From contig OMIW01000070.1 of NCBI GenBank assembly GCA_900299205.1, positions 1 to 17,194 on the forward strand: a stretch of DNA of 17,194 nt, read 5' to 3'. The stretch comes from Pseudomonadota bacterium (lineage in GTDB: Bacteria > Bdellovibrionota_C > UBA2361 > OMIW01). Made by a program: the position numbers and the translations under genes. This document shows positions 2,795-8,693 of this stretch, in pieces. The notes below the pieces were generated by a model. It searched no databases. It was not told the DNA's origin and worked only from the letters and a program-made list of their open reading frames with translations. The first letter of the stretch is position 1; each line of letters starts with the position of its first letter.

Positions 2795-4249
2795 TCACCC
2801 TTGTTCCCTTTCTGCGGCCAACAAGAGCACCGAGGTCACCAACTCCTCACCCTCAGCCTCCACCGCAGCAAAGCGGTCGGGCTCAAGGAAGCGAAACAGT
2901 CGCGCATTTGCCCACAGATATCGCTGCGAAGCGACATATCCAAGGACCGCTGAGAGTACCGTTCCCATCAGGAATGGCACCAAGAGGCCTGGAGCGAGAC
3001 CAGCGACGATTCCGGAGGTGAGAAGCAAGGTCGCATACCAAGCTCCAAATACCGAAACCGCAGACCCAAAGAACTGCTGTCCCCGAAGCCAGAGAAACTG
3101 CGGCATTTTCGCAGTTCTCTTCGCCAAGATGGCCAGCGGCACACTATTGAGGACAATCCCGAGATAAACGAGACCAACCATAGATGCCGCCATGAGGGGG
3201 CTACGCCAAACACTCCGTGGCTTAAAGCCGTTTGAGGTCGACGTTTCGATTGCTCCGTCTTTCTGCACAGCCTCACTGACCCCTGGAGCAATTCGCCCCG
3301 GCAGAGCCCAACCTGACTGGAGCGCATCGAAATGACGATCCAAGCGATTGAAGAGGTCGATTCGTTGAGCGTCAGGAAGACGGTAAGCCCGCTCCACAAC
3401 CCGAGACGCAAGCCGCACTCGGTTGATGTCGCTCATGTCCAGCCCCATCAGGACCCCCGTAATCTGTTCGATTCGGGTTGAGTCGTTGATCGGAGCGATG
3501 ACCGCGAGTTTTCGGAGCCATTGTTCGAAGCTCTCAGTGAGAGTCTTGCGCCATTTCCTTGCCTCGGGCCGAGATGGCGAGGCAGGAAGTTGGGCAATCG
3601 GGGTCACCGCTCCAAAGGAAACGACAACCTGCGAGCCGAACGGCTCCAAAAACCCCGAATAACTCAGACCTGCACAGACAAGCGCTGGACTAGGGTGACG
3701 TTGGGAACTTTCAGCAGTAAACCGGGCGATATCGAGGGCCAACTGAGCGGCACCGGCCTGGACTTTATCAAGGCTATATCCGCCCGGACTGCCACCATCG
3801 GGGTAAATAACCACGACGGCACCAGCAACTACCCGTCGAGCCGCCTCCTCGAGAAGAGCGAGATTCTCTGCTCTGTCACGAGCTGAGTCCCGACCATCTT
3901 TCGCCCGATTAATCGGGATGAGGTTTAACGACCTCAGGAAGCTGAGACGAAGAACATCCTCAATCCTTTTCAGGCGAGCTTGGAGCAGAGGGCTTCTGAC
4001 TCGCTTCAGGATTGGCGCTACCAGCGCACCCTCGTACAGGGTACTGTAAGCCAAAAAGAAGACATCCTGACGCCCAAGAGCGTAGGCCATCATGACCGAA
4101 TCCATCATGTGATTGCAGTGTGGACCTGCAACAACGAGCAGCCCTCCTTTTGGTAGCTGCTCCCGTCCGACGACCGATACCCGCCCGTAAACGAGGGGAA
4201 CCGCCGAGCTGCTGATGATTTTCAGCAACGGAAAAAGTGAAAAACGCAT
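2795..4249 (-). CDS. Membrane glycerol-3-phosphate acyltransferase-like (PlsC/LPLAT family)
   Basis: Predicted acyltransferase of phospholipid synthesis, 484 residues, probably acylating glycerol-3-phosphate, dihydroxyacetone phosphate or lysophosphatidate at the membrane. The N-terminal block resembles the Gpt2/Sct1-type branch of the family: motif I is GPHCNHMMD, with His44 and Asp50; motif II is PINR (112-115); motif III is YPDGGS (149-154). In relatives motif III usually reads FPEGGS, so the conserved Glu is Asp here. A hydrophobic segment precedes motif I. Two or three transmembrane helices lie in the C-terminal third (about 365-385 and 405-450), as in bacterial members with this longer architecture. 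ATG is the start; an AAAGG is found 12 nt upstream, a rather wide spacing. Its nearest same-strand neighbour upstream is the trpS unit, separated by about 360 bp with two terminator-like hairpins, so it probably has its own promoter. The exact acyl acceptor cannot be read from sequence. Confidence 0.87.
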   Translation of the reverse strand: MRFSLFPLLKIISSSAVPLVYGRVSVVGREQLPKGGLLVVAGPHCNHMMDSVMMAYALGRQDVFFLAYSTLYEGALVAPILKRVRSPLLQARLKRIEDVLRLSFLRSLNLIPINRAKDGRDSARDRAENLALLEEAARRVVAGAVVVIYPDGGSPGGYSLDKVQAGAAQLALDIARFTAESSQRHPSPALVCAGLSYSGFLEPFGSQVVVSFGAVTPIAQLPASPSRPEARKWRKTLTESFEQWLRKLAVIAPINDSTRIEQITGVLMGLDMSDINRVRLASRVVERAYRLPDAQRIDLFNRLDRHFDALQSGWALPGRIAPGVSEAVQKDGAIETSTSNGFKPRSVWRSPLMAASMVGLVYLGIVLNSVPLAILAKRTAKMPQFLWLRGQQFFGSAVSVFGAWYATLLLTSGIVAGLAPGLLVPFLMGTVLSAVLGYVASQRYLWANARLFRFLEPDRFAAVEAEGEELVTSVLLLAAEREQG

Positions 4250-4331
4250 GGTTTAAAAAAACCTTTCGGTTCTCTCTTCTACCCAATCCACGCGTGTAAG
4301 AACCGCTCAAAAACCTCCGAGGGGGCTGAAT

Positions 4332-4354
4332 AAAAAAAGAAGGGGCCCTCCTTC
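4332..4354 (-). terminator. Intrinsic terminator with 7-T run, possibly an attenuator
   Basis: On the minus strand the arms GAAGG and CCTTC (5 bp, loop of six GC-rich bases) are followed immediately by TTTTTTT (4338 to 4332). This is the classical form of a Rho-independent terminator. It sits about 80 nt upstream of the acyltransferase start on the same strand and about 190 nt beyond the terminator of the trpS unit. It is therefore either a second backstop terminator, the end of a short RNA, or an attenuator in the acyltransferase leader. Confidence 0.6.
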
Positions 4355-4540
4355 CGCTAAGAGGCTGCGAAATAAGATATTCGAGTCGGTGTGTGGGCCG
4401 AATGAGCGGAGCGATTGTCCGAAGCCCCTTATTTCCCACCCTCTCAAAGTTTGACGCTAGCAGAGAGGCGAAAGGGAGTAAAGGCGGGGCGAGAATGAGG
4501 ATGTGAGTCCACCGGTCTACGAGGACCCTTTCAAGAGAAA

Positions 4541-4581
4541 ATAATCAGGGCCGTAAAAACACCTTTGGTGCTTACGGCCCT
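4541..4581 (-). terminator. Terminator of the trpS unit
   Basis: Perfect 10-bp inverted repeat (AGGGCCGTAA at 4547-4556, TTACGGCCCT at 4572-4581) with an inner CACC-TTT-GGTG stem. On the minus strand it is followed by GATTATTTT, an interrupted T-rich tract. It lies 31 bp beyond the stop of the 76-residue ORF and fits as terminator of the trpS transcript. On the plus strand there is no T-run. Confidence 0.7.
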
Positions 4582-4612
4582 AAAACCCTCTTAGGGGGGT
4601 GGTGCGCGGAAC

Positions 4613-4843
4613 CTAACGCACCGGGAAATTCCTCTCTTGCACCTGCGGTTGCAGCTGCAGATGAAGAACCAAGGTCAGAACCGAAGCGTTGTACAAAATG
4701 ACAAGGCAGACGAACACCGCCACTCCGTAGGTGAGGTCTCCCAACTCGAGGATACTGCCGAAGCAGTCCGAAAGGGCCCACTGCTTACTCACAATGTAAC
4801 CTGCAAACAGGTAAAATATTGACTGATTATGTCCAGTAGTCAA
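4613..4843 (-). CDS. Small predicted membrane protein coupled to trpS
   Basis: Hypothetical protein of 76 residues, not recognised. It would start at a TTG whose first three bases overlap the trpS stop as TTGA, an arrangement typical of translational coupling. It ends at TAG 31 bp before a strong hairpin, so it occupies exactly the space between trpS and its terminator. Residues 39-60 form one clear transmembrane helix, and residues 8-18 are a weaker hydrophobic stretch. The C-terminus is Gln-rich and ends in a short basic tail. No catalytic motif, cysteine pair or signal-peptide cleavage site is convincing. The alternative is that this is non-coding 3' trailer; the rare TTG start and the lack of a recognised family keep confidence moderate. 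Confidence 0.45.
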   Translation of the reverse strand: MTTGHNQSIFYLFAGYIVSKQWALSDCFGSILELGDLTYGVAVFVCLVILYNASVLTLVLHLQLQPQVQERNFPVR

Positions 4844-5953: not shown

Positions 5954-6994
5954 ATGTTCGGCCGAATAGCCACCCTCATAATCCTCAGCCTCTCTCTCGC
6001 GGCCTGGTGCTCGCTCATCAGTATCGGTTTTCTGTTAGCGCCAGAGGTACGTCGCGCGACCGCTGAAGCGAGTGTGCGACGTCTGGTGCTGGGTCGCGCC
6101 ACTCCCCCCACCTCGACGAACTCCCCGATCAACGTCAATCTGCCTGAACCTGATAAGCTAAAGCGTCTCATCGCTCAGAGCGTGGCACCACTAACCCTTC
6201 CCGAGCGACTCACAAGTCTCTTTCTTGGCCTCTCTGAGCCTTCACCGACCAGCCTCTCGTTCCTTGAGGAACTTGTAACCGTAGCTCTGCTCGTTAGTCC
6301 GGAGGAATCAGCATTGCGACTCGCAGAACATATTTCAACGCTGACGGATGCCCTTCCAACAGAGACGAGAAACCGAGTCCTTTCTGAACTTCTGCCCTCC
6401 ATGGAGTTACTACTCGATAATGCCTCTCTCCGTGCGACTCAAATCCGCGAAAGCGAAAAGCTCGAGGCGAGTCTCCGCGATCTCAACGCAGAATGTTACC
6501 AGCTTCGAAGCAAGCTCGCAGAACTGCTTGGACTTGGGAGCCCAACAATCGGTCGCCACATCGCTAATTCTGTCTGCAGCACCTATAAATCGGGGCCATT
6601 ACGCGGCCTACCGAAACTCTCACTACTCCGCTCTGAACCGGAAACAGCCGAAGCGCTATCAAGAGCGCTGCGAGGGGCTGGATCTGCCCTTGATTTTACA
6701 GATGGAACCTTCTCGGATCGATCAACACAGCTGCGGTTCCAGGATCACTCACCTCGTTGGCGAGCATTAATGGCAACGCTCGTACCTCAGATCTCAACCC
6801 AAACCGAGCAACTCGCCACTCATCGCGACGCGCTCGAACGGATCACGCAAGAGAGAGTCCCTCTCGGAAGGACGTTCATCGGAGCCCTCCTTACCGCCAT
6901 GCGCGAAGCCCGGGTCAGTCAACTCCATCGTCGTCAATCATCCGCGATCACTCAGCTGAGTAGTTGGATTGTCGACACGGTCGCTGACAAGTGA
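5954..6994 (+). CDS. Membrane-anchored protein of unknown function
   Basis: Protein of 346 residues that I do not recognise. Residues 5-29 are strongly hydrophobic and lack a clear cleavage site, suggesting a single N-terminal membrane anchor with the rest in the periplasm (or a long signal peptide). Most of the remainder is predicted alpha-helical and Leu/Glu/Arg-rich. Residues about 155-195 have heptad-like Leu/Glu spacing and could form a coiled coil (ESEKLEASLRDLNAECYQLR). A Pro/Thr-rich segment at about 50-68 separates the anchor from the helical part. Only three cysteines are present, and no metal or nucleotide-binding motif is seen. The coding frame is open throughout and has codon use like its neighbours, so the gene is probably real. 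It is divergent from trpS and followed by the long gene-free region. No ribosome binding site is strong at the ATG. Confidence 0.75.
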   Translation: MFGRIATLIILSLSLAAWCSLISIGFLLAPEVRRATAEASVRRLVLGRATPPTSTNSPINVNLPEPDKLKRLIAQSVAPLTLPERLTSLFLGLSEPSPTSLSFLEELVTVALLVSPEESALRLAEHISTLTDALPTETRNRVLSELLPSMELLLDNASLRATQIRESEKLEASLRDLNAECYQLRSKLAELLGLGSPTIGRHIANSVCSTYKSGPLRGLPKLSLLRSEPETAEALSRALRGAGSALDFTDGTFSDRSTQLRFQDHSPRWRALMATLVPQISTQTEQLATHRDALERITQERVPLGRTFIGALLTAMREARVSQLHRRQSSAITQLSSWIVDTVADK

Positions 6995-7259
6995 TCGAGA
7001 GAAAACGGGAGAGCAGAATCGATCTTCGATTCGATACCACAAGACGCAAACAGGCGATGTATATATTCGACCAAATTGAGAGATTCCCACAAAAAAATGA
7101 CGTAAAACTGAATAATATCAATATCGTAAAAATATTTTCCGTGTTGCAAAAATTTTTCTGAATCCTTCTCTTTTTTGCCTTGTGGACCCCCAAAAGACCT
7201 CCTATTATCCCCCCACTTGGCACCGGGAAGCGCCATGGGGATGGAGGAAAATGCACCTT
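6995..7259. other. AT-rich intergenic stretch with a short hairpin
   Basis: The first part of a 993-bp gap. It holds a 7-bp perfect hairpin (GAATCGA at 7016-7022, TCGATTC at 7026-7032, loop of 3) shortly after the preceding stop, without a T-run. Then comes a markedly AT-rich section (about 7056-7175) with runs of A and T, which is a plausible promoter or upstream-element region for the structured segment that follows. The two overlapping minus-strand frames here have no signs of being coding. Confidence 0.5.
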
Positions 7260-7985
7260 CGTGAGGGCAAGAGGTATTCCGCTCTGTGCGGGGCTTCTAA
7301 CGCTGGGGGTAGCGAAAAAAAATTTGTAAAAAAAGCAGATTAACGCCCCCTCTTAGTGTTAGAATCGCATAACTTCGAGACTCTTATGTTTGTTGTCGTT
7401 TAGGCCGGTTAGCGGGGACCCTTAGGTTCAGCAACGTGTGCTTCGGAAGGAATGTGCCACTTTGTGGCTGGTGTGTGAGCAGGCCCCTCGCTGAGGGGAT
7501 GATGAAACCCTCGCAGTAGGACGTTCATACGCAGGGACGTTTCCATTCCGGTTTTTTGATCGGTTGAACTTCGAGAATTGGTTTCTTTACGAAATATCGG
7601 TGGTCCCGGATAAACAGGCGGGAACCGAAAGGCCGGTTGGCCTCTCTCTTGAGTAAGCCCGTAAGGCTTCGGAGAGGAGATGGCAGACAAGATGGCCGTC
7701 GCTGGTTAATCTGAAACGTGTTCGTAAGAAAAGGCTCTCCTTGAGGGCCAGGGATGCTTTCGGCCTAGTTCCAGCGTTCGCCGATCAGTGCGGAGGATGA
7801 AAATTCAAGGAGTCAGAGATTGGGTCGACTGGTGAGCCCTTGTAGCCACCGGGTGGGATGAATCTTGACAGGTTGAAGGAATTTGCGGTGGGTGGTGCGA
7901 AGAGTTTTGCGAGATAGATTGTGATTAAAGATATCCGCAAGACGAAAACCAAAAACTTATGTAAGCAGTATTAGGGAGAACGATA
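7260..7985 (+). ncRNA. Candidate structured RNA or very long leader, unknown class
   Basis: About 725 bp without a believable reading frame, on the plus strand rich in purines and in short hairpins. Visible stems are: GCCAC/GTGGC with TTT loop (7456-7468); CCCCTC/GAGGGG with GCT loop (7484-7498); GGTCCCG/CGGGAACC with one bulge (7602-7626), which competes with AACCG/CGGTT (7623-7638); a nested hairpin CCTCTC/GAGAGG enclosing AAGCC/GGCTT (7641-7677); and a GACC-CTTA-GGTTC hairpin at 7417-7429. The segment ends directly at the ribosome binding site of the 100-residue gene at 7988. It may be a separate RNA gene, a 5' untranslated leader, or the remnant of a mobile element. It does not match tmRNA, RNase P RNA, SRP RNA or common riboswitches as far as I can judge. 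Boundaries are guesses. Confidence 0.35.
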
Positions 7986-7987
7986 CT

Positions 7988-8290
7988 ATGAAAGGATGGT
8001 CGAATTCTGAGACTCCAGGTTCAAGCGTGATGTTGCCGGAAAAGCGGCTTCTCGCGGCGGTACTTCAACGGGCGATTACCGACTACCTCTCGGGAGACCA
8101 AGACGTACAAGAGGACTCAGCCCAGTGGCTCCTCGACGACGAGCCGTCAGGTTCTCCGCTTACCTTTGAATTCGTGTGCGAAGCTCTTGATATTGATCCA
8201 GCTGGCCTTCGTCGCCAAATCCTCTCTCAGCGAGCCACGCTGTCTGCTTCTGCGGTCGAGAATGGAGGAATTACCGCGTCGCTGTTCTAA
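7988..8290 (+). CDS. Small conserved-looking protein of unknown function
   Basis: Protein of 100 residues with ATG preceded by AGGGAG at 9-nt spacing, a good ribosome binding site. The core (about residues 17-80) runs: a helix around LLAAVLQRAITDYLSG, an acidic patch WLLDDEP, then a segment FEFVCEALDIDP and a basic helix GLRRQIL. From memory this combination (tryptophan plus acidic pair, phenylalanine, CEAL, DP, LRR) resembles a family of short uncharacterised proteins, some predicted to contain a helix-turn-helix-like fold. No function is known to me. There is no signal peptide or membrane helix. It is preceded by the long structured region and followed by a hairpin and yacG on the same strand. 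A regulator or RNA-binding role would be speculation. Confidence 0.82.
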   Translation: MKGWSNSETPGSSVMLPEKRLLAAVLQRAITDYLSGDQDVQEDSAQWLLDDEPSGSPLTFEFVCEALDIDPAGLRRQILSQRATLSASAVENGGITASLF

Positions 8291-8444: not shown

Positions 8445-8693
8445 ATGGCGAGATGTCCCTCATGTAGCAGCCCCTCGGCCCGCAGGACCCCTGCTGAATC
8501 CTGTTTCCCCTTTTGTTCTTATCGTTGTCAACAACTTGACCTCAGCGCATGGCTTCGGTCCGATTTTGTGATCTCGACGGGAATTTCTGATGACGTCATT
8601 CCCATTTCTCATGCTGGCGACCAAGAAGCCGACCCTCCTACCGACGGGATAGGGACCTCTCCGAGCAGTCCCAACGGACTCCTCATCGATTAA
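8445..8693 (+). CDS. yacG: YacG-family zinc protein (DNA gyrase inhibitor family)
   Basis: Small zinc-binding protein of 82 residues. Members of the YacG family bind DNA gyrase and inhibit it in Escherichia coli; the role in this organism is inferred. The zinc site is C-x2-C-x16-C-x3-C: Cys4, Cys7, Cys24 and Cys28, in the context CPSC near the start and PFCSYRC, followed by the diagnostic DLSAW (residues 32-36). The start is fixed by the strong AGGAGG. The C-terminal half (residues 45-82) is acidic, Pro/Ser-rich and probably disordered, as in many YacG proteins. In many proteobacteria yacG sits beside coaE or type IV pilus genes; neither is nearby here. It follows the 100-residue gene on the same strand with a 154-bp gap that contains a hairpin. 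Confidence 0.88.
   Translation: MARCPSCSSPSARRTPAESCFPFCSYRCQQLDLSAWLRSDFVISTGISDDVIPISHAGDQEADPPTDGIGTSPSSPNGLLID

Follow-up and report, generated by a model that had tools for sequence, protein, structure and literature searches.

The DNA analysed here, referred to as the window, is a stretch of 17,194 nucleotides in which a segment at 7260-7985 is flanked by two genes, one of 346 aa that ends at 6994 and one of 100 aa whose start is at 7988. An earlier note, made by inspection, had proposed that this segment is a large structured RNA of no recognised family, with no plausible gene on either strand and a purine-rich plus strand. The last two observations hold. No open reading frame in the segment is longer than an antisense TTG frame of 93 aa, for which neither Pfam nor NCBIfam gives a match, and the purine content of the plus strand is 55.6%, compared with 48.4 +/- 3.7% in windows of the same size from the contig. 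The segment lies directly 5' of the 7988 gene, with no gene intervening. The features that can be placed at the locus are as follows:

7173-7208, plus strand: promoter-like block located with a profile of 22 relatives' promoters; T-tract, -35 element TTGTGG (7180-7185), 17 nt, -10 element TATTAT (7203-7208)
7215-7987, plus strand: predicted structured 5' leader, its start placed from the promoter block; based on positional homology to orthologue leaders and a folding z of -1.9 to -2.6
7295-7364, plus strand: long hairpin TTCTAACGCT...AGTGTTAGAA with an inward extension GGGGG/CCCCC; inverted repeat I1, also in the predicted fold (7250-7399, z -2.8)
7456-7498, plus strand: two short perfect hairpins, 7456-7468 and 7484-7498, seen directly
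7602-7677, plus strand: hairpin cluster including the overlapping stems 7602-7626 and 7623-7638, seen directly, overlap confirmed
7904-7943, plus strand: 12-pair hairpin GTTTTGCG..GATA/TATC..CGCAAGAC close to the 3' end of the leader, from the predicted fold (7800-7949, z -2.8)
7967-7987, plus strand: small hairpin AGTAT/ATACT whose loop holds the likely Shine-Dalgarno sequence AGGGAGA (7973-7979), seen directly and in the predicted fold
7988-8290, plus strand: gene for the 100-aa protein, with four predicted helices, a weak helix-turn-helix resemblance and no Pfam or NCBIfam family

Members of the 7988 family were found in all 45 phylum genomes searched, and orthologues with 49-58% identity occur in most genomes of the order; their sources are uncultured bacteria labelled Deltaproteobacteria, Oligoflexia, Bdellovibrionales and similar. 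Several paralogues per genome are usual among the 45. Pfam, NCBIfam and PHROGs contain no noteworthy entry for this family. In the AlphaFold model the protein forms four helices (mean pLDDT 79), for which Foldseek returns only weak likeness in the PDB to sigma-factor and homeodomain helix-turn-helix folds (E 0.6 or worse); uncharacterised phage proteins match somewhat better, still weakly (best E 0.002). Because these structural resemblances are weak, a role in DNA or RNA binding is only suggested by the model. Directly 3' of the gene in the window is a gene for a YacG-like DNA gyrase inhibitor (8445-8693). The neighbours of the orthologues in three other loci (L084 1004-2526, L068 3937-5202 and L060 3879-5669) are cell-division or translation genes; among these loci the orthologue is transcribed divergently from mraZ-mraW, faces ftsZ, or lies 5' of a class II tRNA synthetase gene.

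The orthologues can be used to compare what stands at the same position in other genomes. DNA searches of the source genome and 56 others gave no relative of the segment, and none that was convincing within the order. Orthologues within the same order are usually preceded by a gene-free leader of 130-650 nt, which begins at a recurring promoter block consisting of a T-tract, TTGACY, a spacing of 17-18 nt, TATTCT and a GC-rich discriminator; we take this discriminator to resemble those of stringently controlled, rRNA-type promoters. The shared block precedes most orthologues throughout the phylum, with the start codon 120-690 nt away. The leaders range from about 90 to 770 nt across the relatives and the window and cannot be aligned between families of one order. 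A comparison of words over all leaders brought out only T-rich words, the element GCTCCGGTTT of family f11 and the stretch just ahead of the start codon. The earlier note had held that absence of conservation in relatives would count against its proposal: the sequence of the segment is indeed not conserved, but the position, the promoter and the folding are.

A profile was built from the promoters of 22 relatives and the whole window was scanned with it. The best match on the plus strand, at 7180, is weak, with 3.1 bits as against 23-49 bits for the relatives used in training; the nearby site at 7141 reaches 2.2 bits, and chance sites on the minus strand score up to 7.2 bits. If the 7180 site is used, the transcript would begin near 7215 and have a leader of about 770 nt, rather than one starting at 7260.

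Folding was compared with shuffled sequences, and the relatives give the clearest result. Whole leaders have a plus-strand z of about -2 to -6 in most of the loci with long leaders. For 15 such loci, the mean z is -2.8 in the first 250 nt of the leader and -2.1 in the last 250 nt, compared with +0.2 in the 250 nt upstream of the promoter and -0.3 in the coding sequence; both ends of the leader differ from the upstream region (paired Wilcoxon p=0.0001 for the first 250 nt and 0.001 for the last), and both fold better on the plus than on the minus strand (Wilcoxon p=0.007 and 0.008). The folding excess in the relatives starts at the shared promoter and is greater on the plus strand. In more distant relatives the leaders are short (about 90-150 nt) and show no notable structure, and thus the long structured form looks derived in this order. 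The structured leader of the relatives is real, and it is undescribed.

Consensus folds could be calculated for three groups of sequences, all from family f11 and with 3-4 sequences per alignment. Judged against column shuffles, these folds are better than expected in every group, with z values of -4.7, -3.4 and -5.6 on the plus strand and -3.5, -2.0 and -3.3 on the minus strand. Pairs in which both sides have changed while pairing is kept in at least one sequence number 18 of 93, 19 of 110 and 16 of 56 (53 in total). Other predicted pairs break in some sequences, and for two of the three groups the covariation term is only a small part of the consensus energy. With 3-4 sequences to a group, the compensatory changes are supportive, not decisive.

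The 5' end of the f11 leaders carries the conserved sequence CTCCGGTTT, behind which there are usually one or two hairpins that differ in sequence but keep their pairing. The covariance model R1, made from this 5' domain, finds the eight sequences from which it was built and nothing more, missing even four other f11 leaders; thus, primary sequence is lost even inside f11. R1 finds no match in the leader of the window and no further copy, although this is a poor test given the f11 leaders that it misses. Another motif, GTGACnnnnGTCATGGAGGA, is kept in two f11 leader groups (in L077, for instance, between about -145 and -95 relative to the gene); it may form a small hairpin or belong to a short reading frame ahead of the gene. 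A conserved upstream open reading frame at GTGACnnnnGTCAT in f11 was also considered and rejected: a short peptide can be read in some loci, but neither the spacing of the start nor the stops are conserved, and leaders outside f11 lack the motif.

In the window, the whole segment folds on the plus strand with a z of -2.6 from 20 shuffles and -1.9 from 150 shuffles, five of which were equally good, and the minus strand has no excess over shuffles (z -0.1 and -0.8). Taken alone, the segment has a modest folding excess. The two strongest local folding windows are 7250-7399 and 7800-7949 (each z -2.8) rather than the cluster of five stems to which the earlier note had drawn attention. Those stems are present, at 7456-7468, 7484-7498, 7602-7626 (arms 7602-7608 and 7619-7626, with a bulge), 7623-7638 and 7655-7669 (inside 7641-7677); the one at 7416-7429 has five pairs and forms only when a G-U pair is accepted. 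Watson-Crick hairpins within 7400-7700 number 5 where 1.6 would be expected (P=0.014, for a stretch picked after the fact), and over the whole of 7214-7987 there is no excess of hairpins (P=0.39). The stems 7602-7626 and 7623-7638 are mutually exclusive, as the earlier note had said, with bases 7623-7626 common to both; nothing in the analysis bears out the switch that it read into their overlap.

Known RNA families were searched with the Rfam 15 covariance models, using the curated thresholds for the window and a cutoff of E<=5 for 6950-8000. There is no match in the window at the gathering score and none within the cutoff in 6950-8000, in agreement with the earlier note, and none of the matches in 20 related loci is credible. 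No tRNA or tmRNA was found in the window. The sequence at 7240, GGAGGAAAATG, is one that we take to resemble the RNase P core. Canonical RNase P RNA and tmRNA copies are present on other contigs of the same genome (G000:C180 and G000:C122); a divergent RNase P RNA at 7240 is rejected because the genome has the canonical copy, and tmRNA is rejected on the same ground. Nothing at the locus points to 6S RNA. The Rfam 6S RNA model matches none of 18 genomes of the order (this one and 17 relatives), and therefore these genomes have either lost 6S RNA or carry one that is too divergent to match. Collections of phage and plasmid DNA hold no similar sequence, which sets aside a mobile or phage origin.

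We lean, with only slightly better than even confidence, toward the reading that 7215-7987 is a long structured 5' untranslated leader of the 7988 mRNA, with its promoter at about 7173-7208. The assignment is carried over from the relatives through position and probably applies to the window. Of the two forms that the earlier note had offered, a long leader or an adjacent RNA gene, the leader fits better, since the relatives have a promoter 120-690 nt before the gene and a gene-free folded stretch that continues to the start codon. Its broader proposal of a large structured RNA without a family is borne out by the absence of Rfam matches and by the significantly folded leaders at the same place in relatives, and tempered by the modest excess in the window. 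A separate large noncoding RNA gene would use the same promoter, end or be processed before 7988, and act in trans or together with the small protein. The size, the density of the fold, its bias to the plus strand, the presence in three relatives of intrinsic terminators some 370-400 nt ahead of the gene, and an adjoining protein that is small, helical and present phylum-wide are all consistent with such a gene. We nevertheless regard it as unlikely: most leaders, that of the window included, have no terminator before the gene, neither length nor sequence is conserved as in the known large RNAs, and the model from the relatives finds no other copy. It is more doubtful still that the locus holds a large structured RNA of a new kind, one that evolves fast and works with the adjacent helical protein as a group-restricted RNA-protein regulatory pair.

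Another reading accepts that the leaders of the relatives are structured and takes the stretch in the window to be a neutral spacer, mostly drifted sequence with ordinary stems. The modest folding excess, the ordinary hairpin count over the whole segment (P=0.39), the weak promoter match and the lack of sequence conservation agree with it, but it accounts poorly for a z of -1.9 to -2.6 on the plus strand with no excess on the minus strand, for the two local windows at -2.8, for the strong purine bias, and for long leaders in the order that are clearly structured at the same position; we consider it rather unlikely. Length and structure invite the idea that the locus belongs, in very divergent form, to a known RNA family, or that it is a decayed coding or mobile element, but no direct evidence points that way. 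The idea is highly improbable, given that Rfam has no match at E<=5 and none credible in the relatives, that RNase P RNA and tmRNA are located elsewhere in the genome, that phage and plasmid DNA show no match, and that the antisense frame matches no protein family.

If the segment is a leader, transcription would proceed from the promoter at about 7173-7208 through 7215-7987 into the 7988 gene, and the leader would most likely regulate its own gene in cis, through the amount of transcript that extends into the coding region or survives that far. This would mean attenuation or an effect on stability rather than plain hiding of the ribosome binding site. The accessibility of this site in the window is 0.45, compared with 0.42 +/- 0.05 in shuffled leaders, and 15 relatives show no trend toward sequestration over shuffles, with few exceptions. 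A structure controlling access to the site, as expected of a riboswitch or translational switch, is not supported, and plain sequestration was rejected, as accessibility equals that of the shuffled controls in the window and nearly all relatives. Only a few relatives have strong intrinsic terminators: L076, L078 and L087 within their leaders, and L065 in the region upstream of the gene. In those lineages this is consistent with attenuation or with a short RNA product; no terminator was found in the leader of the window.

Known long structured 5' mRNA leaders (riboswitches, protein-binding leaders and attenuators) likewise precede and run into one gene, and the relatives share with them a promoter of their own, structure that is stronger on the plus strand and, in some cases, terminators inside the leader. 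Unlike them, the leader described here has no Rfam family or conserved ligand-binding core, is unusually long and changes very fast in sequence. The large ornate bacterial RNAs OLE, ROOL and GOLLD, the subject of PMC12286853, are similar in being several hundred nucleotides long and densely folded, with no open reading frame; they form conserved families, however, while the leader described here has no Rfam match and ranges in length from about 90 to 770 nt. RNase P RNA and tmRNA are also long structured RNAs in a comparable size range, but differ in that this genome has its canonical copies on other contigs. Sequence-based RNA searches miss the leader because its promoter position and folding are kept and its sequence is not. 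If the leader reading is correct, an uncultured bacterial group gains a long leader RNA of its own, attached to a phylum-wide protein, and such RNAs could be found through synteny combined with folding statistics. The window has a second gap, of about 590 nt at 4249-4840, which lies between a 484-aa gene and trpS and contains no convincing gene.
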